Shown here piece after piece: positions 1,236-17,931 of a DNA stretch of 64,000 nt (positions are counted from its first letter, which is position 1; every line of letters starts with the position of its first letter). The notes under the pieces are model-generated. The model did not search any database and was not told the origin of the DNA. It saw nothing but the letters and a program-made list of their open reading frames with translations. A program made the translations under genes and the position numbers. The DNA lies in the NCBI RefSeq assembly GCF_030864355.1, contig NC_083395.1, forward strand, positions 496,001 to 560,000. Direction: 5' to 3'. Origin of the DNA: Cutaneotrichosporon cavernicola. Taxonomy: Eukaryota > Basidiomycota > Tremellomycetes > Trichosporonales > Trichosporonaceae.

Positions 1236-2264
1236 ATGGCCTCAGTCCCCGGTATCCTTCTCGACTCCTTCATAGACGCAGCCGACACGCGCCTCCCTGA
1301 TACCCTCCCAACCTGTGAGGAACTTCACACCCTCAAACCACTGGGCAACCTCTCTCGGAAGAAGGTCCGCGCCATCTTCGGGGCGCTCGAGTACGCGTGG
1401 CGCGAGGTCATGGGCGAATACTCGCCGTCCCCTGTGCTTATCGAGTTGTTGTTCAAGCGGCCGAGGAGCGCGGATGAGGCACTGGGAGTCTACCTCCAGA
1501 CGCTGTTGGAGGAGGAGGAGAGGCGCGCTGAGGCTGGAGACGAGGAAGAGGAGGAGGAAGAAGAGGCTGAGAAGAGAGAGGAGGAGGACAAGGATGAAAG
1601 GGGGTGGCGGCAGGAGGAAGGGGAGAACTGCCGGGAGATGGAGCACTTCGGCAAATACCAAGAGGAGAAGGGGGGATGTGACGAGCTTGACGTCTACGAG
1701 CCGGAGGACGAGGAGGAGGCGACGGCTGAGGAGGAGTGGACGACTGAGGAGGGGTGGACGGGGGAGTGGCACGCGACAGAGGTTGAAGAGACAGAGGCGA
1801 CAGAGGTAGAGGACTCGGTGGACGGTACGGAACAGTTTCATCCTGAAAATGACCAGTCAGCCCTCGAACAGCCCAAGATGAACGCTCCTGCAGTCATAAT
1901 ACAGCCCCTGGAGACGCCCAAGACCTCATCCAACCTCTCCATCCTCTACCCTGACCCCACCCAACCGAACCATGCCGACCAAGCCCTCCTCAACGACTGG
2001 ACAATCACCATAACTGACGTCGACGCGCTACGTACGCACCCCGTCATCGCGGACCTCACTGCTCAGCTCGACGCACTCCCAACACCCATCGACCTTGCGG
2101 GTAGTCTCCGGATCCGGCACCGGCACCGGCCCCGGCTCGAGGCCGAGCCGTGGCTCAAGGTCAACACACAGTACAACGCGACCACGGAGGGGGAGGGGGG
2201 ACCCAAGAAGGACGGTTGGAAGAGGTTGGGAAGGATGCTGAAGGGGCTGCCTGCGTGCGTGTAG
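1236..2264 (+). CDS. Hypothetical acidic Glu-rich protein
   Basis: Single-exon frame of 342 residues. I chose ATG 1236 because it follows a pyrimidine-rich leader; the same frame stays open upstream but without a convincing start. Residues 1-90 look folded and helical (LSRKKVRAIFGALEYAWREV). They are followed by about 100 residues of Glu/Asp/Lys-rich low complexity, predicted disordered or coiled coil, then a more mixed C-terminal third containing RIRHRHRPRLEAEPW. No known domain, signal peptide or membrane segment is seen. I do not recognise the protein. The long antisense frame over the Glu-rich part is a composition shadow. Confidence 0.6.
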   Translation: MASVPGILLDSFIDAADTRLPDTLPTCEELHTLKPLGNLSRKKVRAIFGALEYAWREVMGEYSPSPVLIELLFKRPRSADEALGVYLQTLLEEEERRAEAGDEEEEEEEEAEKREEEDKDERGWRQEEGENCREMEHFGKYQEEKGGCDELDVYEPEDEEEATAEEEWTTEEGWTGEWHATEVEETEATEVEDSVDGTEQFHPENDQSALEQPKMNAPAVIIQPLETPKTSSNLSILYPDPTQPNHADQALLNDWTITITDVDALRTHPVIADLTAQLDALPTPIDLAGSLRIRHRHRPRLEAEPWLKVNTQYNATTEGEGGPKKDGWKRLGRMLKGLPACV

Positions 2265-2339: not shown

Positions 2340-3010
2340 GCATCATAGTTGCCGCTTAGGAGTGGCGCAGGGAGAATAATGCAGCTTCTGGCAATAATTC
2401 TTGATAATCGTGACTATTCTGCGTTCGAACTCCTTCTCGCGGATCGCCGTTTCTGGCCAACCAGAGAAGCTATGCAGTTTTTCTCTTGCACAGACACTCT
2501 CAACATCATCCATTATCGCCCTCATGAGAGGCTTGGCAATGACTGTCTTGCACCTGCAGTTAAGAAGAGCCAAGGTTTCATGGTTTGGGCAGGCATCTGG
2601 ATGGTGGTTGCACTCTTCTGGTTCGTTTTGACACCTCCCACTCAAGAGGCAAGAAGAAGGGTGTAACTGCCAAGATATATTGTGACCAGATCCTCAAGAA
2701 AGCGCTTCCTGGGCCATGGGATTTCATGCGCTCGTGTTGACAGAGCTGGGGAGCGACTCCTGATATCATTGAGGGCAATGCAGTTGTCCACAAGGCCAAG
2801 ATTTGTTGTGCAGAGTGGAATAAACAAGGATTTAACATTGTTTTCCACCCCCCAAGCTCGATGTCAATTGCATCAAGCATGCATGGTCAGAGCTCAAGCG
2901 TCGTCTAGCCATGGTATCCCTTCGCCCAAGCACCTTGGACGAGCTCTGGGAAGCAGCACAGCGCTCGACAGAGTGTTCGTTCCTGATCTGAACACCATTT
3001 TGGGTCACTA
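2340..3010 (+). mobile_element. Degenerate Tc1/mariner-like transposase relic
   Basis: Transposase-like peptide fragments lie in order on the plus strand but in different frames. They are a GFMVWAGIW block (about 2575-2605), a KIYCDQILKKALPGPWDF-like block (about 2671-2724), and at 2848-2994 the block LDVNCIKHAWSELKRRLA followed by STLDELWEAAQ. The last block resembles the PDLNPIE..W..LKRR end of Tc1/mariner DDE transposases. Stops and frameshifts separate the fragments, so the copy is dead. I did not find terminal inverted repeats. The relic lies beside the expanded paralogue cluster, which may be coincidence. Confidence 0.6.
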
Positions 3011-3499
3011 GGAGGCACTGCCTTACAGCGGCCGGAACGGATAGGGTGGAACGTGGGTCATCTTGTCGGCAGCGAGGCGGAACCAGAGACCAGTTCCATT
3101 CCATGTTCGCCACTACCAAAATCACAGATCGCCACTGCCAATGAATACTTTGCAGCAAGCTGCCACAAGTAAATCAACACAAACTATCAAATCATGGAAA
3201 GCTGTTCTGGACAATTAACGTACAGCCAGCAATCATCAACTAGCGAAAAAACCATACCCATTTCACTGGATTTACCACTCACAATGAAGATCAGTTAACC
3301 TCTCGCAGCACATCCACTCGAAAGTCTCGCACTCTTCCTGCGGCAAGCAACCTTCGCTCCTCGACGAACGTCTCCCACATCCCGACGAGTTGCATAAATA
3401 CCTCCCTCTCGTCGTCTCTCACTTCCTCACTCTCAACACCCTCTGACTCTAACCTCTACTACTTTCTTACTTCACAACCACTTACATTAAAAGTTAACA
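3011..3499. other. Intergenic, promoter side of the first small cluster gene
   Basis: No gene is seen. The last 100 bases contain a TATA-like element and a CT-rich leader ending in the start context of the gene at 3500. Confidence 0.5.
3393..3400 (+). promoter_or_regulatory. TATA-like box of the gene at 3500
   Basis: The element cataaata lies about 100 bases before the ATG and is followed by a CT-rich tract, the usual layout of basidiomycete core promoters. It is a position and sequence match only. Confidence 0.4.
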
Positions 3500-4182
3500 A
3501 TGGCCCGCATCACCCCGACCGTCGGCCGCACGACCCGCAACGTCGCACCATATTCTCAGCGCGACAACAAGGATTACACTGCCCGCTCGACAGAGGCGCG
3601 CAGAACCGCTACCAAGACAGCCCTAATCGTAGTCTCCCCCCCGCATGCGCCGCACTACATGTCGGGTCCCATCCGCCGCCGCCAGCCCATCCCCCAAGCC
3701 CCTCCCCCTTCCAGCCGCACCTGTACTCTAACGGCGGGCCCCCTCGCCAACGTGCACGACACGCAGGCCGCCGCCACCCTTCTCCGCTTCCGCCGCCCCG
3801 ACTGGGACCGCGTTACCCCTTCTGAGTTCCTCGCCTCAGTTGACCGCCACCTCCTCTCGCGCAGCATCCATCTCAAGACCACCGAGTTTGGCAATATGAT
3901 CCCCCTCGAGGACCTGGCACGCACCACCGCGCGCTTCGTCCTCCGTGCCGTTCACGACTCTTGGGTCGCCGCAAACCCCACCCAAGACGCGTGCAAGCCT
4001 CGCTGCGGCTGTGTTCGCGAGATCATGGCGAGTGTTCCGTTTGCCGTGACGGCCGAAAACTACCTCCGCTCTACGATGGAGGATGTTATCCGCTGGCTTC
4101 ATTGGGACGGGAAGGACGATAACGAGGGTGAGACCGAGGAGGAGACGGAGACCGAGACCGAGACGGAGACCGAGACCGAGAT

Positions 4183-4215
<33 letters not shown>

Positions 4216-4267
4216 AACCGAGGCCGAGGGCTGGACCGACACTGAGATGGAGGGCATGAGCGAGTAG
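3500..4267 (+). CDS. Cluster protein with shared N-terminal block, Cys motif and Glu-Thr repeat tail
   Basis: Single exon, 255 residues. The first 100 residues are basic and Pro-rich, unlike the other cluster members. From about residue 112 the protein shows the shared helical block (start FLASVDRHLL, end RAVHDSW), two residues longer than in most paralogues. The expected CxCx2C site follows at the right distance but keeps only a CKPRCGC arrangement. The C-terminus is a run of Glu-Thr pairs encoded by a GAGACC-type hexamer repeat (about 4127-4230), so length may vary between strains. No signal peptide or membrane segment. Membership is inferred from the block alone; this is the most divergent member. 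Confidence 0.65.
4127..4230 (+). repeat. Coding hexanucleotide repeat (Glu-Thr)n
   Basis: An array of GAGACC-like units with occasional third-position changes encodes alternating Glu and Thr at the end of the 3500 protein. The six-base period keeps frame when units are gained or lost. Confidence 0.85.
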
Positions 4268-5272
4268 GCTCAAGATGGTACTGTAGGTAGTAGAAAATGT
4301 TGTAGTACCCGAGCCCCTACGACCCGAGCCCCGCCGACCCGGGCCCTTAAATTGCGCACACGTTCAACCGTATTCTATGCATCGTACATTCACTCTACAA
4401 CAGGAAACACATCATAGTAGTTGGTGAGAGGAGGTGAGCGAGTGAGAGAGAGAGAGGGAGACAGAGTAAGTAGCTGAAAGCCGGGAGAACTAGAAGATGC
4501 ATTGAAGTAGACGACGACAGCAGATAGACTGAAGAAACTTATCTCTCACGTGTTTAGTTAAGCTGAAGCCAGCTGCAAGCCGATAATGGTCCAAAGCAAT
4601 TGACATGGTGAACCACAATGCCTCGGCTCGTCATTATTCCTAAATGTACTGAGCTCTGGTTCATGGGAAAGCCCACGGTAGCTGCGCTCTCACGACGCAA
4701 CGCCTCCGTGTGGGACGAGGAAACTCGGCTCGGAGCTATCGACCAGAACCCCGGAACATTTGTAAAGACCTTGTCTTTTTTTTTCCCGCACCCGGACGCG
4801 TAGGACTAGCTCACCTAGCCAACCCAGATCCATTGCGCTCCCCTCGGAATGATGCAGAGCACCCTACAGAGCTGCACATGCGCCCCCATGCCCGAGTCGA
4901 CTGCACGAGGTTGGTGGACGCCACCCTGCCTGTGATCCGCAGGTGCGAGAGTGCGAGAAGTGTTGAAGTGGTGGCGTGGTAAGTGGTGAAGTGGTAGGCC
5001 TAATTTCCCAGCTAGCGGTGTATGTGGAATGAGGGGTGAGAATGCTGTAAGGGAAGAGGGAGGATGATGATTTGTGGCACTGCGATGTTGGGAAATTGGG
5101 AAATTGTCACGAAATGCACACAACGCCGTAATACTCACTCTCTCACCCGGCTCTGATGCATCCCAGACCTCTCATCCCTCCCATCCTCCTCTTCCCTATT
5201 TATGCACGGACGCTTCCATCTTCGTCACCTCACAACCAAAATCTTACCTCTCACCAACAACCAACTGTACCA
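4268..5272. other. Intergenic, about 1 kb
   Basis: No supported gene. It contains a purine-rich gagagag stretch near 4440-4460. The last 80 bases form the promoter and leader of the gene at 5273. Confidence 0.5.
5196..5204 (+). promoter_or_regulatory. TATA-like box of the gene at 5273
   Basis: The element ctatttatg lies about 70 bases before the ATG and precedes a CT/CA-rich leader. Assignment is by position only. Confidence 0.4.
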
Positions 5273-5608
5273 ATGGACCAGACTCTCAACGAGACCCCTC
5301 TGTCGCCGGCCCACAAGCTCGCCTTTGAGCAGGCCATCGATACCAACTTCCGTACCTTCGGCGTCCGCACGACCTACGTCGACCTCCACAAGGACCTCAA
5401 CATGTACGACAAGAGGACTCAAGGCGTCATCATCAGGTGCATCCACGATGCGGCAGTCACGGTTGGCCTCAGGCCCGTCTTCGACCCGCTGTGCCAGTGC
5501 CGCTCGTGCGATTACAGGAAGATTCTCAACTGGCGCATCCGGGGGTGGGCCGAGGACGTTTACCACGCCACAGAGATGGCCAAGAGGGTTGCGTCAAACA
5601 TGCGCTAG
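5273..5608 (+). CDS. Small cluster protein: shared helical block plus CxCx2C
   Basis: Single exon, 111 residues. ATG 5273 follows a TATA-like box and a clean leader; the open frame upstream lacks a good start. The shared block begins at Phe in AFEQAIDTNF and ends at CIHDAA. The Phe-to-His distance of 40 residues equals that in the RING proteins at 8258, 9253 and 15155, and Asn8, Gly13, Asp29 and His41 of the block match the 8258 protein without gaps. Sixteen residues after the His comes CQCRSC, then a Trp 8 residues later (KILNW). Three close Cys could bind metal with a fourth ligand or in a dimer. No RING follows. Function is unknown. Confidence 0.75.
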   Translation: MDQTLNETPLSPAHKLAFEQAIDTNFRTFGVRTTYVDLHKDLNMYDKRTQGVIIRCIHDAAVTVGLRPVFDPLCQCRSCDYRKILNWRIRGWAEDVYHATEMAKRVASNMR

Positions 5609-5714
5609 GCTGTAAGTACTCAACCACCCTCGCTCACTCCAGGCCGCACTCAAAGGAAGTGCATAATTCAGCTTGGGGGCGGATATTGACGGCGGCAGAA
5701 CCAAGGTGCAAGGG

Positions 5715-5722
5715 GTATATAC
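5715..5722 (+). promoter_or_regulatory. TATA-like box of the gene at 5880
   Basis: The palindromic element gtatatac lies about 160 bases before the ATG, farther than at the neighbouring genes. Assignment is tentative. Confidence 0.3.
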
Positions 5723-5879
5723 CAGTATGTACCTCTGGGTCCCCTTCTGATGGGTTTTGTGCTAATCAAAACAGGGGGACACCATCAAACTCGGTCATTT
5801 GGCACCATCACCCCCACCCAGTCCATACTCTATTGTCCTCAACTTCTCCCATCCTACAGCACTCTACCTCTACCCAACA

Positions 5880-6161
5880 ATGCTCTCCATGGTACACCTC
5901 ACCCCCGATAAGCAACGGCGCTTTGTCGCGGCCCTCGACGCACGCATCCTCATCCTCTTCGACATGCCTTGGCACGAGCTCGAACCGCTCTTCGAATTCC
6001 ACGGTCCCCTCGAGCAGAGCCAGATCCTATTGGATTTGCACGACACCATGAGGGCCTTCGGCATTGCGACCATGTACGATGTGCGCTGCAAGTGTACCGA
6101 GTGCAGCACGGAAACGCGTATTCTAGGGTGGCGGGAGGAGGTGCACAAGGAGCTCGGGTAG
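5880..6161 (+). CDS. Small cluster protein: shared helical block plus CxCx2C
   Basis: Single exon, 93 residues, starting at ATG 5880 after a CT/CA-rich leader. The shared block runs from RRFVAALDAR to DLHDTM and is one residue shorter than in most paralogues. The Cys motif CKCTEC begins 16 residues after the block His, exactly as in the proteins at 5273 and 6658, and is followed by ILGW. The gene lies 271 bases after the 5273 gene in the same orientation, consistent with tandem duplication. No signal peptide, membrane segment or RING is present. The coding call rests on conservation with its neighbours. Confidence 0.72.
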   Translation: MLSMVHLTPDKQRRFVAALDARILILFDMPWHELEPLFEFHGPLEQSQILLDLHDTMRAFGIATMYDVRCKCTECSTETRILGWREEVHKELG

Positions 6162-6657
6162 ATTCCTTAGATCACGATGGTGCACGAATAGGAGTATGTA
6201 GATAAATGATGAACTCGTGACAGGATACAATGGAAACTCGTGGCTGGATACGATGGACACTGGGAGGTGCGTTCAAATCTGATTGCCCCTGGGACTGATC
6301 ACTCACGCGCCTATCTTGCACTTCGAAGTTTGTTCCTGCGAGGAATGATAGCAACTATGTCCTCGACTTGACAGACTCGAACTTCGAGGATGCTCCCGCT
6401 GCACCTCATATGACCGCGTACTGGTAGGGCAAGTGGACAGCCTTTGATAATTTGGGCAGAAGCATTGATTTTGCGACTGATTTTGGGCCATCCTTGAATC
6501 AACCCAAACACTCCATCACAATTACTAGGACCTCTTGTCATTCTCTTCTTGGATCAACATCTCTTTCAAGAGCGAGCCGATTCGGTAAATATTTCTCCAA
6601 GCGTCCTCTCTACAGGCATATAACCCGTCTCACTCTCTACCCCTCTCCTCATCTACA
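6162..6657. other. Intergenic between two small cluster genes
   Basis: No supported gene. It ends in a CT-rich leader with a TATA-like element at 6616-6623. Confidence 0.5.
6616..6623 (+). promoter_or_regulatory. TATA-like box of the gene at 6658
   Basis: The element gcatataa lies about 40 bases before the ATG within a CT-rich leader. This implies a short 5' leader if it is used. Confidence 0.4.
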
Positions 6658-6939
6658 ATGTCCACCACCTTCGCCGAGGCATTCGAGGCCGAGCTTCGCA
6701 TCAGCTTCGCCAACTGGCCTACTCACCGCCTGGCTGAAATTCACAAGACGCCCTTTGACAACCTCGACCAATTCAGCCAGGGCCTGGTGCTTACGGCCTT
6801 CCACAACGCCATGGTCCAAGTGGGAATGAGCCCTCCACTGGACAGACGGTGCGCGTGCGAATATTGCGGCATTACAGCCCGGATGCGGCGCTGGAGCGAG
6901 GTGGTGGAGGCTGAGCTTACTCGGGAGGGGTTCCTGTGA
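6658..6939 (+). CDS. Small cluster protein: shared helical block plus CxCx2C
   Basis: Single exon, 93 residues. The shared block starts at AFEAELRISF and ends at TAFHNAM, with the same 40-residue Phe-to-His spacing as the RING paralogues. Sixteen residues later comes CACEYC, then a Trp at plus 8 (MRRW). It has the same layout and length as the 5880 protein but differs at most positions outside the anchor residues, so the duplication is old or fast-evolving. No RING or targeting signal is seen. Function is unknown. Confidence 0.74.
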   Translation: MSTTFAEAFEAELRISFANWPTHRLAEIHKTPFDNLDQFSQGLVLTAFHNAMVQVGMSPPLDRRCACEYCGITARMRRWSEVVEAELTREGFL

Positions 6940-7527
6940 AGCACATCTGGCCCGTTGAGGGAGGGAGTGGGTGAGATTCGGGGGCTGTTTTCGCCCTCCT
7001 TACCTTCCATGCTCAAAATGGACCAAGACTAGCATCCTTATGGTTCACAAGCCACTGGCACGTCGTCATCTTCTTTTGGCACCTAACGCCACAATTCTCT
7101 CCTACCCTTCCACGACACGCTGGTTCCAAGCCATATACTGCCCCCACGTCAAGATCGGATGTAGATTCCAACTAGGTCCTAGCTTCCCGCTCTTCAAGGT
7201 TAGGTCGAGTGCCGTGGACACACTGTGATAAGGGAGCTGTAGTTTCCTATCTTTACATGCAGAACTTCTACGAGAACTCTGACAAAAATGATGAGGCGAA
7301 CACTGAGCTTAACAGTCCGAGCAGGAACGTTGGGATGTGATACCGAAACGTGAGCGTAGGATAGCTGCAGGGAGGTGGCACATCAATCATCTTGGCGGAA
7401 ACAGTTTGGGTATACATATTGAAATCATTGGCAACTGAGTCGATGTCATGCTAAGAATGTGGCCATGCCGACAGAACCACCGCCAGCTTGATGAGGTGGC
7501 AATTGGCTATCGCTCCTCAGCCGCTGC
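6940..7527. other. Intergenic between convergent cluster genes
   Basis: Lies between the 3' ends of the plus-strand gene at 6658 and the minus-strand gene ending at 7528. Short frames here show no block or RING motif, and no gene is supported. Confidence 0.5.
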
Positions 7528-8258
7528 CTAAATCAGAAACACCTTCCACTGCTCCCTTAAAGTGTCAGCGTGTCCTGGAAGTCATTGTAAAAAAAAAACT
7601 CACTCGCGATACCGGGTCTCCTTGCATCCAGGGCAGGGGGAGCCGGTTCCGTGAAGCACCTTGGCACAATCTGTAGTCAGCTCTGCCTTAGATCAGACGT
7701 ACCCTCACACATCATGACGTGGTTACAGGCGTGGGGCATCGTGTCAGCCTTCTTGTCCTGGCAGACGACACAGATCCCATGCTCGGACACGGTGGCCAAC
7801 TTGGCCATGGCGGCGTACATGGCAATGGTCTTGGACGCCTCAGCGTTTGCTTCGGCCACAGCGTCCGCGACCGCAGCCTTGGTGGACGCCTCAGCCTCGG
7901 CCTTGCACTTGTCCTGTGCCGCGGCGACAGCGCGGGCAGTCGCAGCCTCGGCCTTGACCACCGCATCCGACTCTGCCTGCTTGGCATCGTCCTCTGCGGA
8001 TGTCACCACTTGGTGCATGAGGATAAAAAGAATTGACGCAAAGCTTGTGAACGGCTCGTCGGGGGAGGCGATTTCGGCCATCCACGCGACCAGGAGGTCG
8101 GGACGAGTGTCGAGCGCCGCGTGGATGCTGCTCATAATGGCGGTCTTCTGCTTCCGGTCGATAGACTGGAAGTGAGGGACGCGTAGGATGCCCTCAACCG
8201 TCAAGCCATAGTCGGCGAGGTTGTCGTCGAGGCGGGCCTGGAAGTCGGAGTAGAGCAT
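7528..8258 (-). CDS. RING protein of the cluster, shared N-terminal block, C3HC4 RING
   Basis: Three exons (8258-7703, 7670-7604, 7555-7528), 216 residues. The second intron needs an AAG acceptor; the joined tail EEQWKVFLI matches its paralogues. Residues 1-55 form the shared block (DFQARLDDNL to SSIHAAL). Residues 85-155 are Ala/Glu-rich and probably helical. The RING ligands are Cys163, Cys166, Cys178, His180, Cys184, Cys187, Cys198 and Cys201. This is the C-x2-C-x11-C-x-H-x3-C-x2-C-x10-C-x2-C layout of IAP- and MUL1-type E3 ligases. The C-terminal W-x-V-F tail also resembles the IAP RING end. It is the only cluster gene on the minus strand. Ubiquitin ligase activity is inferred from the fold. 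Confidence 0.82.
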
Positions 8259-9252
8259 AGTTGCGAGGGTGGCTGCTGGTGCGTACAGTATGGGGTTGGG
8301 TGCGAGATGAGAGGTTGAGATAGTTGCTGGTTCTGTGATGGTAGAGAGGTGAGAGAAATCGATGGGACGAAGTGTCAGCGGGACGAGACCGCTTATATCC
8401 CTTAGGGAGAGTGGACCACCAGGGTGGCAGTGTGCTACCCACTAGTCAGTTGTACCATGGGAGACGGCCATGGCGATTGTGCTGGATCGTGACGCAGACC
8501 TCGGTGTGACATGGGAAAAAGGAAAGAAGATGACAAGTGGGAAATCCCACAAGCCCAATGACGGATCTGCTGCTCCTCTGTAGGGAAAGATGGTTCCCAG
8601 AGTTAGAAGCGGGCTCGGTGAGCGATGTGTGGCACGAAAGGGTTGTGTGTTGCGGAATGTGGCGATCTCGCAAACTCGGCTGTCAGTATTCCTCAACCCC
8701 AGATATTCCTTGTCTTGCCAAGATCCTGGTTGAGGCTACATCTACGCACTACGTTGGCTGGGTTTAATATGTTTATCGCGTCGAAGATTCGCCACGGGTT
8801 TCAAGAGTTTTATTAGGTTTCGGCTTGTCTACTCCAAAAACAACCGAACCTGCATAGGATGCATCAGAAAATGGTATGATCAAAATTGGAGCGGTTGGTT
8901 CGTGCTTATCCCGCTTTCTACGGCCTCATCGCCGGTTCACATCATCCCCACCTTCTTGAAAGTGGCTGGGATAGCTGTGCTTGCTCGCCTCTGTGTAAGA
9001 GCAACGGTTGTGTAACATATATCTCATGTATATGTCGAAGAACACATTTTCCTCTCGCCCCTCTTGCAGTTCCCAACATATCCAACATGGGACCCGACCA
9101 CCTACCACCTACCACCTGGAGCTCAGCGGTGTTAAATGTTTCAGTGTGCTTCCCTACCCATGTCCTACCTTCACCTCCACCTCAGCTGGGAACCAAACGG
9201 GGCGATTGACACCATTCACACCCAACACATTCATCTTACCTCCCTCAGCCTC
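8259..9252. other. Intergenic between divergent RING genes
   Basis: Shared upstream region of the RING genes at 8258 (minus) and 9253 (plus). A minus-strand TATA-like atataagc lies at 8391-8398. No gene is supported in between. Confidence 0.5.
8391..8398 (-). promoter_or_regulatory. TATA-like box of the gene at 8258
   Basis: The element reads atataagc on the minus strand, about 135 bases before the ATG. Assignment is by position only. Confidence 0.35.
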
Positions 9253-9864
9253 ATGCGCTACTCGGACTACCAGAGCTTGCTCCTCGACAGGCTGCGGAGA
9301 CGGGGGTTCTCCATCGAGGAGATACGCAAGCTCCCGTGTCTGGCCATGCTCGACTACGAGAAGCGGCATAACATCATCTCCTGCTTCCACGAGAGCCTCT
9401 GCGAACCCTTCAAAGCGGTGTGCGCGTGCGACGACCTCTTACACCTCCGCGGCACAGCTGGAGGTGAGACGCCCACCACCCTCCTCCTGGAGTGGTCGAA
9501 CACATGTGCTCGTTACGTTGAGCGCGCAGCTCCGCAACAGCCCAGACCCCAGGCGTTGTCCAAGGAGGCGGAAAATGAGTCGGAGCCCGAGGAAAACGGA
9601 AACTCGAGCTGTGTCATCTGCTGGGACAAGGCGCGCAACCAAATGCCATACATCTGCCAACATATTGTCATGTGTGAAGGTGCGTTGGCGGGAGGGCTGA
9701 ATACTGATACCAGAGTGCGTGACGAGGGTGGTGGACCCAATAAAGTTAACCGGATGTCCAATCTGTGGGAACATGGAAGAGCGCCGGTGAGTGCCCAGCG
9801 TCAGTCGGCCCGAGCAAAAGCGCTGATGTCCAGGCGTACGATGTGGCGTGTCTACTTCAGCTGA
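9253..9864 (+). CDS. RING protein of the cluster, shared N-terminal block, C3HC4 RING
   Basis: Three exons (9253-9679, 9714-9786, 9834-9864), 176 residues. The frame is open upstream of ATG 9253, but MRYSDYQSLL aligns with the starts of its paralogues. The shared block (DYQSLLLDRL to SCFHESL) has the 40-residue spacing without gaps. The middle is short and acidic and lacks the Ala-rich helix of the larger members. RING ligands are Cys120, Cys123, Cys135, His137, Cys141, Cys144, Cys157 and Cys160. The last 31-nt exon encodes the tail MWRVYFS, close to the IAP-type RING ending. Intron phases (1 then 2) and positions match the other four RING genes. Putative E3 ligase. Confidence 0.82.
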   Translation: MRYSDYQSLLLDRLRRRGFSIEEIRKLPCLAMLDYEKRHNIISCFHESLCEPFKAVCACDDLLHLRGTAGGETPTTLLLEWSNTCARYVERAAPQQPRPQALSKEAENESEPEENGNSSCVICWDKARNQMPYICQHIVMCEGALAGGLNTDTRVRDEGGGPNKVNRMSNLWEHGRAPVSAQRQSARAKALMSRRTMWRVYFS

Positions 9865-10401
9865 AGCGGGTGGCGGCCCTGCGCATCTACGACAGTCGTG
9901 GTTATTCGCGTACTGTAAAAGTATCAGTACGTTGTATCTGTTTCACTCATGTAGAGTGTTTATAGAAGCCTATCTCCCCCATGGAGCCCTCGTCGGTTCT
10001 ACTGGTTAGTCCAGACATCTGGGCCCACTTATACTGCACAAAGCCGACTTCGCAACTGGACCTCTACCTCTCTGTTGGTCCCAACAAAGTGAGCCTGAAG
10101 CGCTACGAAGACCCTCATCCATGATCTGCCTTACACATTTCTAGAACAAAACGGCGCCGCTGATGTCAGTGACACTCTGGAACTAACCACGCCACCCGTG
10201 TTGTCTCACAGCAAACAGGGAGGAGATTTGTTCTGTTTCCAGAGCCTCGAAGTCTTGTGACCGGTCGAAGGCTATGCTCACTGCTCGCGCTTCGCATAGC
10301 CTACAGCTCGTAACGTGATACTCTTCATACTCCTTCTGCTCTTTTCCATAAGGCTTTCATCTCCCCAACCTGCCCGCCATTAGCCCAGAACCGAGGCAAA
10401 G
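9865..10401. other. Intergenic with a hairpin
   Basis: No supported gene and no trace of the shared N-terminal block, although the next gene lacks that block. A perfect 9-bp inverted repeat lies at 10269-10302. Confidence 0.5.
10269..10302. repeat. Inverted repeat, 9-bp stem with 16-nt loop
   Basis: Arms AGGCTATGC (10269-10277) and GCATAGCCT (10294-10302) are perfectly complementary. The hairpin lies about 100 bases before the start of the RING gene at 10402, in its promoter or leader. Confidence 0.7.
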
Positions 10402-11026
10402 ATGTTCAGACGCTCCTCCAGCCGTGCATCCCGCAGCACTACCCGCTCCAGCGCCGGGCCAAACCTCACTGCGTCCCACCTCCAAATCGAAGTCGACAGG
10501 GCCGCTGCAGTAGCTGAAGCTCTCTCCCGCGCGGCGGCCATCGAGGCCGAGCGCATCGTTGACGCAGTGGACGCAGCTGAGGCCATCCATGCTGCCGCCC
10601 TCGTCGAAGCCACCCAAAGGGCTGAGCGGTCATGCTGTCTGACGCATCAGGCGGCCTTGGAAGATGCGGTGACCCAGGCGTTCGCTCTCGTGGAATCGGT
10701 TGTGGAAACAGCCGTTGCGGAGGCGGTCGCTGAGGCTATTGCCAAGGAACGGGCAGAGGCAAGGGAACGAGCGGACGCAACCGAATACGGTGGTATCTGT
10801 GTCGTATGTCGTGATGAGCTGGTCAACCAGATGCCCTTCAAGTGCCCTCACATCCTCTTGTGTCACGGTAAGTGGTGCCTTGGCGACTCTGACCCAGACT
10901 GCGCCCTACGTGTCGTCGAATCCAGGAGGGGATGCCCGTGGTGTAAGGTCACGGACGTGCATCCGTGAGTGCTGGTTGGGGCGTACTAACAGCAGCGCGG
11001 CCAAGTGGCGAGTGTACCTGCCATGA
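10402..11026 (+). CDS. RING protein of the cluster lacking the N-terminal block
   Basis: Three exons (10402-10867, 10898-10964, 10996-11026), 187 residues. The N-terminus is a basic Ser/Arg-rich stretch (MFRRSSSRASRS), followed by about 90 Ala/Glu-rich residues likely to form a long helix or coiled coil. The block found in the other RING members is absent, and I see no decayed copy upstream. RING ligands are Cys133, Cys136, Cys148, His150, Cys154, Cys157, Cys168 and Cys171. The tail is KWRVYLP. Exons 2 (67 nt) and 3 (31 nt) have exactly the lengths seen at 15155. Putative E3 ligase that may recognise partners differently from its relatives. Confidence 0.8.
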
Positions 11027-11898
11027 GAGGGGAGCTTGAGTGAGGAATGATCTAAGAGCGGGGTGGCAACTGCATGTACTGTACCTGTGATCGTTTCCGA
11101 AGCGGACTGGGTGGCAAATGGCAACCACTGAAGGTCCAGTACGTAACCGGTTGCCAGCTCACCAGCCAATCCGAGACAATACTGATGCCATCAAAATACG
11201 GGAATGCCGCGCATACCGTAAAGTAAAATCTAAGGTAAAATCTAAGGTACAGCTTAGATTGGTTGGGTGATTGCAGCAGCTGTCGAGTTGCACCAGCAGC
11301 AGGTTGATTTGCTCGGAGCAGTTCGGCCGTAGGTGGAAGCAGGTCGATGGTCGATGAAGTCATTGTGGCGATGCCCGGACCTGAAACGCAGAGACCAATC
11401 CATTACAGTACCACCAAGATTGAGCCCGTCAGGTCGATGATGCATTCTCGTAAGCTTGTCAACAGTATGAAGAAACGCAGGTCTGCCAATCACACTCATC
11501 GCGGCCGCTGCTTACTGTGCAGAGCATATCTCAGCTGACGGTGGCTACGTTCCTGACTCTTGCTCCGACGGCAGTGCTTTCGGCCACATGACAGATCCAA
11601 CCCTAGATAACAACTCAACCTTACCATCAGCAAACCAGCAAGCTCCAGCAGTCCGGACCTTACACTACTGGATATGCTGGGCACAGCTTATGTTCTCTCA
11701 AGAGTTACACTTCCGTACCCCGAGTCCCGACGTAACCGAGCTAACTCTACTCACTCCACTCCACTTCTGTCGAGCACAGCAGTCGACATGGCCTTCACCT
11801 GCCCAAGCATCTATTTTACCTACACCAGCATCTATTTTATCGCCACTTACTTCCTACTGAAACTTATCAGTATCATTTGACTACTCACACTCGACACC
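11027..11898. other. Intergenic between RING genes
   Basis: No supported gene. It holds small local duplications: a repeated gtaaaatctaag motif near 11220-11247 and a repeated agcatctatttta (11806 and 11827). Confidence 0.5.
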
Positions 11899-14055
11899 AT
11901 GCTCTACAAGGCTTTCAAAGAACGCCTTGAAGCCAACCTGGCTTGGGAGGGCCTGAGCGTCGATGCCCTCGCCACCAAGCCATGCTTCAACCAGCTCAGC
12001 TCCAGGATGCAGACCCAGGTCTGCAATGCCCTTGTGGCAGCCCAGGACCCAGCTTGGGACGATGCGCACCCGGGTACGCGAATGTCTCACATTACCAACG
12101 CATTCAAGAACCGCTGGACTCCGTCCCACCTCTTGTTCGCCATAGCCGATCGGGCTGCCACCGAGTCCGAGGACGAAGCCCACAAGATTGCTCAGAGGAT
12201 GGGGGTCACCTCCACCACGGTCTACACAGCTTTCAAAAAGCGCCTTGAAGCCAATCTGGCGAAAAAGGGGTTTGACATTGACGCCCTCGCCACCAAGCCA
12301 TGCCTCAATCAACTTGGCTCCCGGATGCAGGCAAACATTTACAAGGCTCTTATGGCCACAGAGGACCCCGCGTGGGACCACCCACGTTCTGTTAACCACA
12401 CTTCCCCCATCACGGACGCCCTCAAGAAAGGCTGGACTCCGTCGCACCTCATGTTCGTCATTGCCGACAGAATGGCCAGGGTGGCCGAGGAGGAGGCACG
12501 AAAGATTGTTGAGGGGACGGTAGACGCGGCCGCCGCGGCGGCCCCTCGAATGGCGACGCCTCTTTCGGTAGTGACGGGGGCGAGGGCTGATGCCGTACCT
12601 GCGACAGCGGCGGTGCCTCCGATAGCTGCGGCTGCGAGGGCAACGGCAGCACCTGCAACAGCAGCGGTACTTGCTACAGCGACGATCCCCGTACAAACGG
12701 TGGCTCCCGCTACACCGACAGGCCTGATGGGCCCAGCTCTTCCTGTGAAGACAGCCGCCCTCATTAACGCTCTCAGGCACTCTATTGCAGCCGTCGAGGT
12801 CGCGGTGGACCGATTGGAGACGATGGCTGCTCCATTCCAAAACCAACCTCAGAGGCCCGGTTCGATCCACGACACCACAAACGACGCCCATGTCACTTCC
12901 ATGGAGGCCTCTTCAATGATCGACGCCCGGTTAAAGGCAGCCTTCCAGGCCGCAAACTATGCAGCAAGTGGAGGGCACCGGTATGCCACCGAGATGGCGT
13001 TGGGCGAGATCCAACGCTTCTCGGACCAACGGCTCGCATCGTCTCTGATTGAGGGTGCACAGGCGGCCGAGAAACGCTTGGCTGCCAGTCTGGTCGACGC
13101 CGAGCTTCAATCCTGCATGCGGTTACAGGCTGCGTTGACGGCCTCACAGAAGGTTGTGGCGGGCGGAGCAGAAGTTTGGGTACGCCGTGCAGAGGCCGCC
13201 GCAGAGCAGCGCATCACTGCAGCGGTGCTGAAGGCGAAGGAAGACACTCGCCGCCAGGTACAGGAAGAGATTATCAAGCCAATGGAGGAGGAAAGGCGTC
13301 TCGCGACCCAGCGCATGGAGGGGATGATGGAAGAAGGTGAGGCTGATCTGAAAAGGAGCTGACTCCAGCACTGGCAGATGCCGAACGGCGGAATGAGTGG
13401 GCCTTGAGGAAATCACAACAGGACGCGGATAAGCGCATGGCGGCTACTTTGAAAGAGGCTGCAAGAGCAACGGACGCGAAGGTGATGGCAGCAGTGATGG
13501 ATGCAGTGGAGGTGACTACCGCCGCCGCCGACGCACGCGCCGTTGGCGCACTTATGAGGGCCGATGAAATGGCTTACCAATACACCAGTGAGATCAAGTC
13601 GTTGAAGACCACCGTTGCCAATCACCAGGCAGACCTTGCAAAGGCGAGGGAGACCTACGCGACATCGGTTAGCACCATGCGGAGAAATATCGCCATTGAA
13701 TCGGAGAAGTTGAGGGCAGATCTTCTCAAGGAGAGACAAGAGCTGGCGATCATGAGGTATTCTTGTCCACGGAAGGGGGCGGAGACGTCAGCACAGGTAG
13801 AACAGGAGGGTGGCAACACCTGTATCATCTGCCTCGATGGCCCGGCGGACCAAATGCCCTTCCAGTGCCAACACGTCGTCATGTGCTTTGGTATGTTACG
13901 TCTTTGCTGAAACTGACGCCAGGATGTTCGGAGCGCATCGTCCGGGATTCGCAACGCTGCCCGTTCTGCGTTGACCGGAAACCCCGCCCGTGCGTATGGT
14001 GTTCGATAGAGCTGACTTCAGAAAGGCGCAGTGGCGTGTGTTCCTCGCGGCGTGA
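11899..14055 (+). CDS. Large RING protein with two tandem N-terminal blocks and long Ala-rich helices
   Basis: Four exons (11899-13336, 13369-13890, 13923-13989, 14022-14055), 686 residues, by far the largest member. The first intron (32 nt, branch ctgac) is unique to this gene; it removes a stop and joins two long frames. Residues 1-100 and 108-204 are two copies of an extended block region, each with AFK[EK]RLEANLA, ALATKPC and a second conserved part WTPSHL. Residues 205-270 are Ala/Pro/Thr-rich. About 280-590 are Ala/Glu/Arg-rich, probably a long coiled coil. RING ligands are Cys631, Cys634, Cys646, His648, Cys652, Cys655, Cys666 and Cys669, and the tail is QWRVFLAA. Putative E3 ligase, perhaps oligomeric. 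Confidence 0.82.
11911..12510 (+). repeat. Internal coding duplication, about 318-bp period
   Basis: The sequence from 11911 recurs from 12229 with clear nucleotide identity, e.g. a shared stretch encoding DALATKPC. It produces the two block copies of the large RING protein. The identity suggests a relatively recent in-gene duplication. The 3' limit is approximate. Confidence 0.85.
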
Positions 14056-15154
14056 ACCGTTCCAGAACACCACGCGAATCTATCCTACATGTTTAGACAC
14101 GCCGCCTCTCGAAGTCCGAAGCCAATGCTGCGGACGAGACCACATACCCCGCGCCGACAACAGTTTCAATATGCTTCCATGGACAGCGCCTGGGCGACAC
14201 TCTGGTCCTATTCCGGGACAAGGATCACGGGCAATATGAAGCAGGGCGGACCGCAGCATTGGGTCATGCACGTGGGCAACAGTGGAGATGGCACGGGCAC
14301 GGTGATATCACCGAAGGGGTGGTGTGCCCTATGTTCTGATGGTGAGGTGAGAAGTCCTCGAGAGACAGAGGGTGTAGAGAGGGAGGGGGTGAGAAGTGCG
14401 ATTACTCATAGTTGGGATGAGTCATAGTGGATATTGTGCAATTGTCCAAGTAATCAATTTGTTAAATGTTAAGTACCTTACCAAAGAGATAGATGAGGTC
14501 TGGAAAACACAACACAGACTTTCATGTCTCCTCTCCTCTGGAACTGTAGAACACTGTACACTCAACTTTGGTAAACTTACCACGTTGCCAATTGCCACTT
14601 GACCAATACTATGTGTTATATACTCAAGGGCAAACCCCACTTCAGTTCTTCTTCATTACTCACCACTCCCTACTCTACTGAACACCGTCACCTGTACGAG
14701 CCCCAAGGCTTCATCACAATATCCACCTCCTCACCGTTTGTTTGAGCATATGCCTACACATTGCTATATACGTCCTCTGCCATACTAATCATCACTGGTA
14801 TTAGGGGAGATAAACGCGCAACTTTTTCATCGTGGAATGAGTGTGGGAAAGAAGAATGGAGAAGGACAATGACGAATCCGCCATGGTTGTTAAGGATGAG
14901 GACGGAACCCGACGCCTTCAGGATTCGGCTTGTAGCCGAAGGCCCACAGGTTGGAAGTCTCTGAGATCTGAGAAGCATAGATAACATATCACGTGTTCCT
15001 TACGCCGGGTTGCAGACTGCATTAAGCCTCAAAAAGGGAGATTGCGAGTCGAACGACAATCAAATTGGCAGGAGACTTTTAGCCAAAAACGTTTCTCATC
15101 TTCCTCTTCCTCCCTTCATTCATTACTCATTCACCTTCTTGCGCGGGCGGCATC
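14056..15154. other. Intergenic, about 1.1 kb
   Basis: Short frames (for example at 14089) have no family match. A tgttatatactc element near 14611 starts a leader-like CT/CA-rich stretch but is 540 bases from the next ATG. No gene is supported. Confidence 0.5.
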
Positions 15155-16013
15155 ATGCTCTTCTCCCAGTTCCACGAACGTCTTGAACACAACCTAGCGA
15201 AGCACAACCTCAGCGTCAAGAGCCTCCTCGACATGTACGACTTCCCAAACCTTCCCAGGTCAATCCAACTCAATGTCATGAACAGATTCCACGACTCGCT
15301 GGAGCCGCAATGCCGCCGCAGATCCAGCTGCGGGGTGAGGATGCTAGAAGAGTCCCTGGAACAACAGGTTTCGCCCTCGTTGTTTCTCTGGAGAGCCTCT
15401 GTGTTTGTTGCCACTCGGGCCGAGGCTGCCGCTAAAATTCGAGTGGAAAAGCAAGGGACTCAAGCGGCTGAGGACGCAATCTCCAAGGTGAAGCAGGTGG
15501 CAGAGTTTCAGAAGAAAGTGGCAATTACCAGAGCTCTGGGACGAGCGAAGCGCGAGGCTGCCGCTGAGCGTGCCCAAGCGGTACTGCTAGTCAAACAGCA
15601 GGCTGTGCGAAGCACTTTCGCGGCTGTCCTTAAAGCTGTGGCCTCCGGACGGGAGAGGCTCACCCAGGCCATCGAGGCAGAGCGGCAGCAGCACCGATTA
15701 GCCCTCGAGAAAGCAATGGGTTCGGCTGCAGCGGAGAAAGCCCTTGCGCTTGGGAAGGCTGTCGACGCCGCACGAGCCTGTATCGTGTGCTACGAGGACC
15801 AGGCGTCACAAATGCCGTACACTTGCCAGCACGCGATGTTTTGCAATGGTGAGTTCGTGTCATTGAAATAGCTGACGTCAGGATGCGCAGTACGCATCGT
15901 ACATGCTAAGAACGGGTGTCCAATCTGCCACAGAAGGAGTGTCCGTCCGTAAGTTCCCCCGATGTGACGGTGCTGACTTCAGTAAGAAGAAGTGGCGCGT
16001 GTTCCTCCCGTAA
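15155..16013 (+). CDS. RING protein of the cluster, shared N-terminal block, C3HC4 RING
   Basis: Three exons (15155-15848, 15882-15948, 15983-16013), 263 residues. It starts at ATG 15155 directly with the shared block (QFHERLEHNL to NRFHDSL, standard spacing, no gaps). Residues 85-205 are Ala/Glu/Lys/Arg-rich and probably helical. RING ligands are Cys209, Cys212, Cys224, His226, Cys230, Cys233, Cys244 and Cys247, all canonical. The tail is KKKWRVFLP. It is the clearest full-length member and the best reference for the family. Putative ubiquitin ligase by fold; localisation is unknown and no targeting signal is seen. Confidence 0.84.
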
Positions 16014-16748: not shown

Positions 16749-17318
16749 TTATGCTCCGCGCGCCTGGTGATACTGGGGCTCTTCGGCAACGCTGCGCTTA
16801 TCGTTGTCCCGGCGCATAAGAGCGGACTCGCACTTGGTCCAATAGGGCACACACTTATCGGTGCACCAGTACCAACCAGACTGACAATTGGGCGGGGCAG
16901 GAGCGCAAACTGGAGCGCCATCGCGCCACAGGAGCACATCGGTGTCGGCACAAGTGCGGATCTGGCGCTTGGGGTTACGGGCCGAGTCAGAGTCGGCACG
17001 GGCCTTGGGCGTGATGGAGGGGTACTTGGGATTGAGCTCAGGCTCGGGTGAACGCGCGGCGAGATCGGTGGGGAGTGGGTTAACGGGCTCGCTGGAAGCA
17101 TCGCACTTGTCCCAGTACGGGATACACTTGTCGGTGCACCAGTACCATCCGCTCTGGCAGAGAGGGGCGAGGGGACCGCAGATCGGAGCGTCGGCGGCAG
17201 CGGACCAGTACAGCACCTGGTCGTCCGGACAGGTAGGGGTCTGGCGCGCGACAATGTCGGGAAGTGGGGCCGCCAAGGCGGGGACGAGGAGGACGAGGGC
17301 GAGAGTGAGGGCGAGCAT
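16749..17318 (-). CDS. Secreted protein with two Cys-rich repeats
   Basis: 189 residues from ATG 17318, which starts a clear signal peptide (MLALTLALVLLVPALAAP). An in-frame ATG at 17405 would put 29 residues before the signal, so the inner start is preferred. Two repeats of about 45 residues share the core CQSGWYWCTDKC[IV]PYW.KC. Each is preceded by a variable part with D-x-[VL]-L-[YW]-W and two more Cys, so each repeat could form disulfides. Between and after the repeats are dibasic sites (KR), which a Kex2-type protease could cut. No membrane anchor is seen. The role is unknown; the layout would suit a secreted small Cys-rich protein. Confidence 0.75.
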   Translation of the reverse strand: MLALTLALVLLVPALAAPLPDIVARQTPTCPDDQVLYWSAAADAPICGPLAPLCQSGWYWCTDKCIPYWDKCDASSEPVNPLPTDLAARSPEPELNPKYPSITPKARADSDSARNPKRQIRTCADTDVLLWRDGAPVCAPAPPNCQSGWYWCTDKCVPYWTKCESALMRRDNDKRSVAEEPQYHQARGA

Positions 17319-17931
17319 GGTGAGGCTTGCGAGAGAGAGCTTGGGGGAGAGCTGGGGCGAGAGTGTGAGGATGGGGTAAAGAATCTTTAAAGTAATGCAT
17401 GGCATTGGTAGCGGATCGGTAGAGAGTTATTCCTGGATGATAAGCAGCATCGCTATGAATGCTTACCAACATGGTCAGTCAGCGTTAGTGATGCGATGCG
17501 GCCTTGTTCGCATACCGTATGGTCGCCGATTTTCGCGCCTCCTGTGTTGTGTACGGAACCGCAGTACTCAGTGTTACCGCGACCGAGCAAGCAGCGCATT
17601 GGTCAGAATCTTCACACGGCTTACTGCTGGCCAGCATGATCAATTTGTCCAGTACCAGCATGTTGTCGGCGTCCATCTTGGCGTCCATCTTGTACAGCTC
17701 TAGGAACAAAAGTTGTGACTGAGAGTGGTAGAATGGCAAGATTCCAGTTTTGACCAACGAGGCAAGATTCCAATGTACTGTATCCATCCGATGACCCCGG
17801 GATTATGAGCCGAAACTCTGTTTCAATTCCGGTGCTGCCAAGTCTTGACTTGCTCACAGCTCTTACAGTTACAGTACCTGCCATTCTTTGCATAGCCTTC
17901 TAATCCTCTGACGTACGTCATACGTCATACG
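17319..17931. other. Intergenic between two minus-strand genes
   Basis: Promoter side of the secreted-protein gene. A short acgtac/gtacgt palindromic tract with repeated tacgtca lies near 17911-17934, beside the stop of the next gene. No other gene is seen. Confidence 0.5.

Follow-up and report, generated by a model that had tools for sequence, protein, structure and literature searches.

A stretch of 64,000 nucleotides from contig NC_083395.1 of the yeast Cutaneotrichosporon cavernicola (assembly GCF_030864355.1, positions 496,001 to 560,000 of the forward strand), referred to here as the window, contains at 3500-16013 a cluster of nine adjacent genes, each denoted by the position at which it starts. 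Eight of these genes carry an N-terminal helical domain, here called the block, and five end in a C3HC4 RING followed by a short tail with a basic and an aromatic residue. The reading we lean towards is that the cluster encodes lineage-specific RING ubiquitin ligases that are dimeric, activated by their tail and fitted with an unclassified domain at the N-terminus, together with ligase-free block proteins that possibly regulate them.

The initial annotation had located nine genes here, and all nine lie at the positions it gave. It had also proposed a shared N-terminal block in eight of them, which leave-one-out profile scoring bears out for nine copies, 11899 having two. Held-out copies score 9.1-38.5 bits, both copies of 11899 being removed from the profile together, and for none of the nine, those of the small proteins included, does any of 1000 shuffles of the same sequence score as high. 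The margins are thin for 5880 (9.1 bits) and 3500 (13.8 bits), because their best shuffles reach 7.1 and 8.1 bits. When the nine-copy profile was run against the 625 six-frame open reading frames (ORFs) of the window, its eight source genes scored E < 1e-19 and the next ORF E 0.096. The gap-free alignment from Phe/Tyr1 to position 41 described for 5273, 6658, 8258, 9253, 15155 and both copies of 11899 was recovered, as were the lengths of 40 residues in 5880 and 43 in 3500 and the absence of His41 from both 11899 copies.

Profile-profile comparison joins the RING-type and small-type blocks at E 8.9e-7 (score 39.9; best of 150 shuffles 14.8, none as good), and a further comparison gave E 5.1e-6. 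The group of 3500 is linked to the small group at E 6.3e-4 and, more weakly, to the RING group at E 0.015 (probability 2.9%), with 0/150 shuffles as good in each case. Whole-genome searches with single members connect the better pairs at E 3.5e-6 to 9.1e-4, some of these alignments extending into the helical stalk that follows the block, and the weaker pairs at E 0.01 to 0.4; the block of 3500 as sole genome query retrieved no other cluster member. Between the two copies in 11899, nonsynonymous divergence (dN) is 0.25 and synonymous divergence (dS) 1.05, a dN/dS of ~0.24 (NG86) or ~0.21 (YN00), and the block in that gene is therefore under protein-level constraint. By these comparisons, the block is a real paralogous domain, and its small and RING types are one family.

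Its extent differs from the 41 residues originally proposed. The unit spans ~85-95 residues with four predicted helices, of which the 41 residues make up helices 1-3. The helical character suggested earlier is supported by AlphaFold2 (AF2) models of 6658 and of P0001, the counterpart of 15155 in C. aff. cavernicola HIS471. The 6658 model, from 13 sequences, has helices at 5-18, 22-30, 38-54 and 72-89, with a mean predicted local distance difference test score (pLDDT) of 75.8 and a predicted template modelling score (pTM) of 0.57. The P0001 model, from 14 sequences (mean pLDDT 73.0, pTM 0.33), has N-terminal helices at 3-15, 21-26, 35-48, 51-54 and 57-70, followed by a single helix at 74-206 with pLDDT 93-96 over 101-190 and lower values at both ends. 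In the small proteins, the Cys motif is predicted to lie in the loop preceding helix 4 and His41 within helix 3. The block had been described as joined to one of two partners, a RING or a separate CxCx2C motif: the first kind of fusion stands, for four block genes, while the Cys motif turns out to belong to the domain itself, CxC being present also in 3500 and in the RING gene 9253. His41 is followed within ~25 residues by two or three Cys in six of the nine copies; no Cys follows at this distance in the other three, and two of these also lack His41, which is thus present in 6/6 copies with Cys and 1/3 without. All five sequences of the small group (three paralogues and two counterparts) keep the His and three Cys unchanged. 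The simplest reading is that His41 and the downstream Cys form a candidate metal site, which 11899 has lost and of which 8258 keeps only the His.

The claim that the block matches no named domain also stands, with a novelty so far narrow in range. A Pfam scan of 12 members with an E limit of 10 found no family common to two or more of them; NCBIfam left the block unmatched, its sole item being rad18, below cut-off, on the RING of P0001; and among solved structures none is conspicuous for the block, by sequence or by the fold search that had been proposed as a check. A search of PHROGs with four proteins returned nothing below E 0.088. The ROP protein, matched by a profile of the Protein Data Bank (PDB) at E 0.054, and weak matches to RRM, HTH, EAL, Fur and Diaphanous were not common to the members and were judged to be chance. 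The four main helices are predicted with moderate confidence, against six in the death fold, and no CARD or death-fold entry occurs among the fold matches listed, which carries no weight against such a fold. Of the open-access papers listed for the species, for RING families of fungi or Tremellomycetes and for the locus tags, none is listed as describing these genes. Against these results, the possibility that the block is a diverged version of a known domain, overlooked by current models, keeps an appreciable though minor share of probability. Taken together, the N-terminal domain is real yet unclassified, in a small lineage-specific family built around a known RING class.

Half of each RING was hidden from ORF reading by short introns. 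Once spliced, 8258, 9253, 10402, 11899 and 15155 all encode a complete C3HC4 RING with its eight zinc ligands in order, spaced C-x2-C-x11-C-x-H-x3-C-x2-C-x10-C-x2-C (x12 for x10 in 9253). The introns are of GT-AG type and 30-48 nucleotides (nt) long, and the proteins end 15-17 residues past the last Cys. Two introns of the RING region sit at matching places in all five genes, one within the RING and one ahead of the last exon, which codes for little beyond W[RK]V[FY] and a few flanking residues. One splice model (15155) is backed by the public protein P0001; the other four were made by hand. The curated cut-off of PF13920 (zf-C3HC4_3), 27 bits, is passed by spliced 8258, 9253 and 10402, by the C-terminal piece of 11899 (42.7 bits) and by P0001 as counterpart of 15155.

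The tail reads R-x-F/Y in four genes and K-x-F in one (R-V-F twice, R-V-Y twice, K-V-F once). According to PMC6349121, Arg614 and Phe616 in the tail of one cIAP1 subunit reach in trans to the donor ubiquitin on the other subunit and act on it, and a Phe/Tyr in the tail is common to several dimeric RING E3s. The basic and aromatic residues of the cluster tails are spaced from each other as in cIAP1.

The 20.2-Mb genome (8 contigs, the window lying on contig 3) was searched for further copies of both parts. PF13920 gave at least 19 matches, 10402 and the gene on contig 4 described below not being among those listed; all four cluster matches have a tail nearby and none of the 15 others listed does, by a looser tail expression adopted for these loci after a stricter one had missed the tail of 8258. 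The RING core QMP[FY]xC[QP]H, with up to two mismatches, occurs at 17 sites, against nine for its reversed control. Five sites are exact, four in cluster genes and one on contig 4, and the other twelve carry one or two mismatches; 8258 departs from this pattern. The tail pattern has ten exact sites and none for its reversed control. Five belong to this family, namely those of four cluster genes and of the contig 4 gene, and the 3-kb loci of the other five contain no unbroken RING half; 11899, with a tail one residue longer, is beyond the reach of the pattern.

The contig 4 gene (C4:708225-709184; L039 823-1782) is a sixth RING-tail gene, with the same intron places, the tail WRVFIP and a different N-terminal region. 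Its N-terminal 130 residues look like a block by eye; they score ~0 bits, with 203/2000 shuffles as good, and were rejected as such. Because the gene has the RING-tail module without a block by profile, the module is not tied to the block. Pairwise identity among the six modules, this one included, is 34-49%.

Seven protein queries covering eight of the nine block copies (5880 excepted) found no further convincing block in the genome by single-sequence search. Three dispersed candidates were re-checked with the block profile on ORFs of at least 30 residues, and none was accepted: at C2:1833869 (E 0.04) the best profile hit was a 35-residue ORF at E 0.029, at C5:1470865 (E 0.0026, with an internal stop) the profile found nothing, and at C1:2622420 (E 0.18) its best E was 0.081. 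In the 10 kb left of the window, 159 ORFs yielded no block (best E 0.19), and the strict expression found no tail.

Searches of 5.8 billion proteins returned eight entries. Three are from C. cavernicola: P0002, a shortened public model of 15155; P0004, the window's own protein; and P0007, from strain HIS641, to which the first exon of 9253 is identical. Four come from C. aff. cavernicola HIS471 (P0006 for 3500, P0003 for 5273, P0005 for 5880 and P0001 for 15155) and one, P0008, from JGI. These searches require shared 5-residue words and score the best 8000 candidates in one case, so that distant Tremellomycete orthologues could be missed. The known range of the block family so far comprises C. 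cavernicola and the near strain HIS471, plus a single protein from JGI, which keeps its apparent novelty narrow. P0008 is found on two JGI contigs, the longer of 20,298 bases, and its sequence is distinct from the genes of both named strains. The four HIS471 pairs share 96/110, 76/93, 148/179 and 204/232 residues (87.3, 81.7, 82.7 and 87.9%), the first two being 5273/P0003 and 5880/P0005. PMC10568926 gives ~93.4% genome-wide nucleotide identity between C. cavernicola and HIS471, describes four strains of C. cavernicola from Japanese caves inhabited by bats, and names RNA-seq data deposited under BioProject PRJDB15446. The protein identities lie below this figure; to call the change fast is provisional. 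In P0006 (179 residues), the Glu-Thr repeat tail of 3500 is missing.

Table 1. Genes of the cluster and a possible divergent member, with exon and block positions in window coordinates (aa, residues).
Feature	Position	Strand	Content
3500	3500..4267	+	255 aa: Pro-rich N-terminus, block 3827-3955, H..C..CxC, Glu-Thr repeat tail; no RING
5273	5273..5608	+	111 aa, block only; block 5324-5446, then CQCRSC
5880	5880..6161	+	93 aa, block only; block 5922-6041, then CKCTEC
6658	6658..6939	+	93 aa, block only; block 6682-6804, then CACEYC
8258	7528..8258	-	Block 8243-8121, Ala-rich stalk, RING, tail WKVFLI; PF13920 37.3 bits
8258 exons	8258-7703, 7670-7604, 7555-7528	-	Hand-made model
9253	9253..9864	+	Block 9268-9390, short linker, RING, tail WRVYFS; PF13920 34.8 bits
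9253 exons	9253-9679, 9714-9786, 9834-9864	+	Hand-made model
10402	10402..11026	+	RING and tail WRVYLP, without block; PF13920 31 bits
10402 exons	10402-10867, 10898-10964, 10996-11026	+	Hand-made model
11899	11899..14055	+	686 aa: two blocks, Ala-rich region, RING, tail WRVFLAA; four exons, hand-made model
11899 block copies	11914-12036, 12232-12354	+	Neither with His41 nor with Cys after that position
15155	15155..16013	+	Block 15170-15292, ~130-residue predicted helix, RING, tail WRVFLP
15155 exons	15155-15848, 15882-15948, 15983-16013	+	Agrees with annotated HIS471 protein P0001 (PF13920 35.1 bits)
1236	1236..2264	+	Possible divergent tenth member: N-terminal ~60 residues block-like, long acidic middle; uncertain

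The first 99 residues of 10402 do not match the block profile (417/2000 shuffles as good), and 11899 contains a 300-nt direct repeat. To the left of the cluster lie a 2-oxoacid dehydrogenase acyltransferase gene (PF00198) and, next to it, gene 1236. Against the all-member profile, 1236 scores 10.8 bits with 0/2000 shuffles as good, yet its E value is only 0.096 among the 625 ORFs, and its hhalign score is equalled by 1/150 shuffles for the RING group and 37/150 for the small group; it was not accepted as a firm block member. A 39-nt tandem pair, 97% alike, lies at 266-343 within an apparent intron of the acyltransferase gene. Broken frames at ~2650-3020, adjoining the cluster, look by eye like debris of a transposase of Tc1/mariner type; a Pfam scan of the ORFs there gave no transposase match. 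To the right lie a pyridoxamine phosphate oxidase gene and a gene at 16752-17426 (-) for a Cys-rich protein, perhaps secreted by eye, with a twofold internal repeat SGWYWCTDKC.PYW and no Pfam match.

A working model can be drawn from these features. Four of the five RING genes encode a predicted four-helix N-terminal domain (twice in 11899), then a helical stalk or short linker, and then a C-terminal RING of the cIAP/MDM2 class, and 10402 has a stalk and RING without the block. The RING would pair and recruit a charged E2, as is known for the class, and by analogy with cIAP1 each tail would clamp in trans the ubiquitin on the partner's E2. The stalk is predicted to set the RING apart from the N-terminal domain, with only a short linker in 9253. 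The N-terminal domain might recruit a substrate or pair with another block, and in most copies one metal ion is probably held by His41 and Cys, tying the last part of helix 3 to the loop that leads into helix 4. The RING-free block proteins, that is, the three small ones and 3500, might then compete or bridge, as adaptors or competitive brakes. A non-basic linchpin residue in 9253 and 11899 would suit partners in mixed dimers.

Several observations weigh against this model of tail-activated ligases with regulatory partners. We infer ligase activity from sequence and dimerisation from the analogy with cIAP1. The residue right after the last RING Cys, which we take to be the linchpin position, is Lys in two genes (10402 and 8258), while 15155 has His, 9253 Gly and 11899 Val; some of the RINGs may therefore be weak ligases or inactive partners. 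A basic linchpin residue helps RING activity, as stated in PMC12326332. In the P0001 model, the RING and tail are without confidence (pLDDT < 50 over 211-245 and 248-263), and residues 51-80 reach only 59-66. A classic heptad coiled coil was rejected for the stalk, since none of five segments shows a periodicity peak at 3.5; only one, the first of 11899, beats its shuffles (period 3.78, equalled by 0.7%), and the stalk is called a long helix, not a coiled coil, because its hydrophobic periodicity lacks a heptad. HIS471 counterparts were returned for only four of the nine genes. The public model P0007 joins 9253 to 10402 and skips the tail exon of 9253; it also retains the 30-nt intron of 10402, whose removal is needed for normal RING spacing in that gene. 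P0008, 63% identical to 9253 over 142 residues, was apparently read through introns, yet ends in WQVFLS, and because of this ending 9253 and 10402 are favoured as separate genes. A regulatory role for the small proteins, finally, is one that we infer from shared domain and location alone.

This last point leads to another account, in which the RINGs are real ligases whose block binds a substrate or target, while the small proteins act independently, for instance as metal-dependent binders, and share the location through local duplication. Paralogues often remain in tandem, and the small proteins form a subgroup of their own, with 14 invariant columns in five sequences (H, CxCx2C, R and W among them), unlike the RING-type blocks. 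This account, against which nothing speaks directly, leaves the shared domain, the putative metal ligands and the common locus without a functional link; we regard it as rather unlikely. More ambitious, and distinctly unlikely, is a reading of the locus as a compact signalling module of the fungus: the block would be a new self-associating domain stabilised by metal, and proteins made of the block without a RING would turn the block-RING ligases on or off, as CARD-only or PYD-only proteins do in animals. Should its change within the genus prove fast, this would be a sign of conflict, for instance with viruses, mobile elements or non-self cells.

We give least credence to a decaying or barely functional tandem array of fast-drifting duplicates without an important role. 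It would suit HIS471 protein identities of 81.7-87.9% in all four pairs against ~93.4% genome-wide, the absence from P0006 of the C-terminal part of 3500, the transposase-like debris beside the cluster, and the lack of any public entry returned for 6658, 8258 and 11899 (the whole of 11899 may fall outside the searched length range). The identity figure, however, stands without control genes beside it. Open frames are present in the four single-exon genes and, after splicing, in the five RING genes, whose RING ligands are complete. The dN/dS of ~0.2 between the 11899 copies argues against decay, as does the retention of the block, the first RING half and the tail in P0008; GC content at third codon positions of 0.66-0.86 across the nine genes points the same way, without a good control.

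Among known systems, the closest likeness of the tail-activated ligases proposed here is to cIAP1, cIAP2 and BIRC7, with which they share a PF13920 RING, the ligand order, the C-terminal position, a helix before the RING and the basic-x-aromatic tail near the end. Compared with BIRC2 and BIRC3, the loop between the sixth and seventh ligands is four residues longer in the cluster. Unlike the IAPs, the cluster proteins give no BIR, UBA or CARD match, and their N-terminal domain is unmatched by any Pfam model; no BIR family, which an IAP (BIRC) member should contain, occurs among the Pfam matches listed (E limits 1, 1, 10 and 0.01). Nor do they resemble TRIM proteins, in which an N-terminal RING precedes a B-box and a coiled coil: here the RING is C-terminal, and no B-box family is among the Pfam matches listed. 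By sequence, the best solved RING is that of MEX3C (E 2.1e-4), and MDM2 is also listed (E 0.11). MDM2/MDMX and MEX3C differ from the cluster in their partner domains, and the MDM2 RING uses a different ligand set. A Phe/Tyr tail is described for MDM2-MDMX in PMC6349121. RNF8, like the cluster proteins, has a helix running straight into the RING and, of all solved structures, matches whole P0001 best (E 0.0011, with the helix in the alignment); its alignment stops short of the tail, and it carries an FHA domain where the cluster proteins have the block.

The cIAP/MDM2 kind of RING ligase is familiar chiefly from animals, in which N-terminal interaction domains couple it to death and immune signalling. 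Here one yeast lineage seems to have assembled a set of its own, joining a RING and tail of this kind to an unclassified helical domain and keeping the same domain as stand-alone small proteins in adjoining genes. Because the parts are small, direct tests are feasible for ligase activity, for its dependence on the tail, and for zinc and block-block binding. CARD-only and PYD-only proteins regulate inflammasome proteins, and they offer an analogy in that the cluster domain likewise occurs both in large effectors and alone in small proteins, although no relation in sequence or fold was seen between them and the block.

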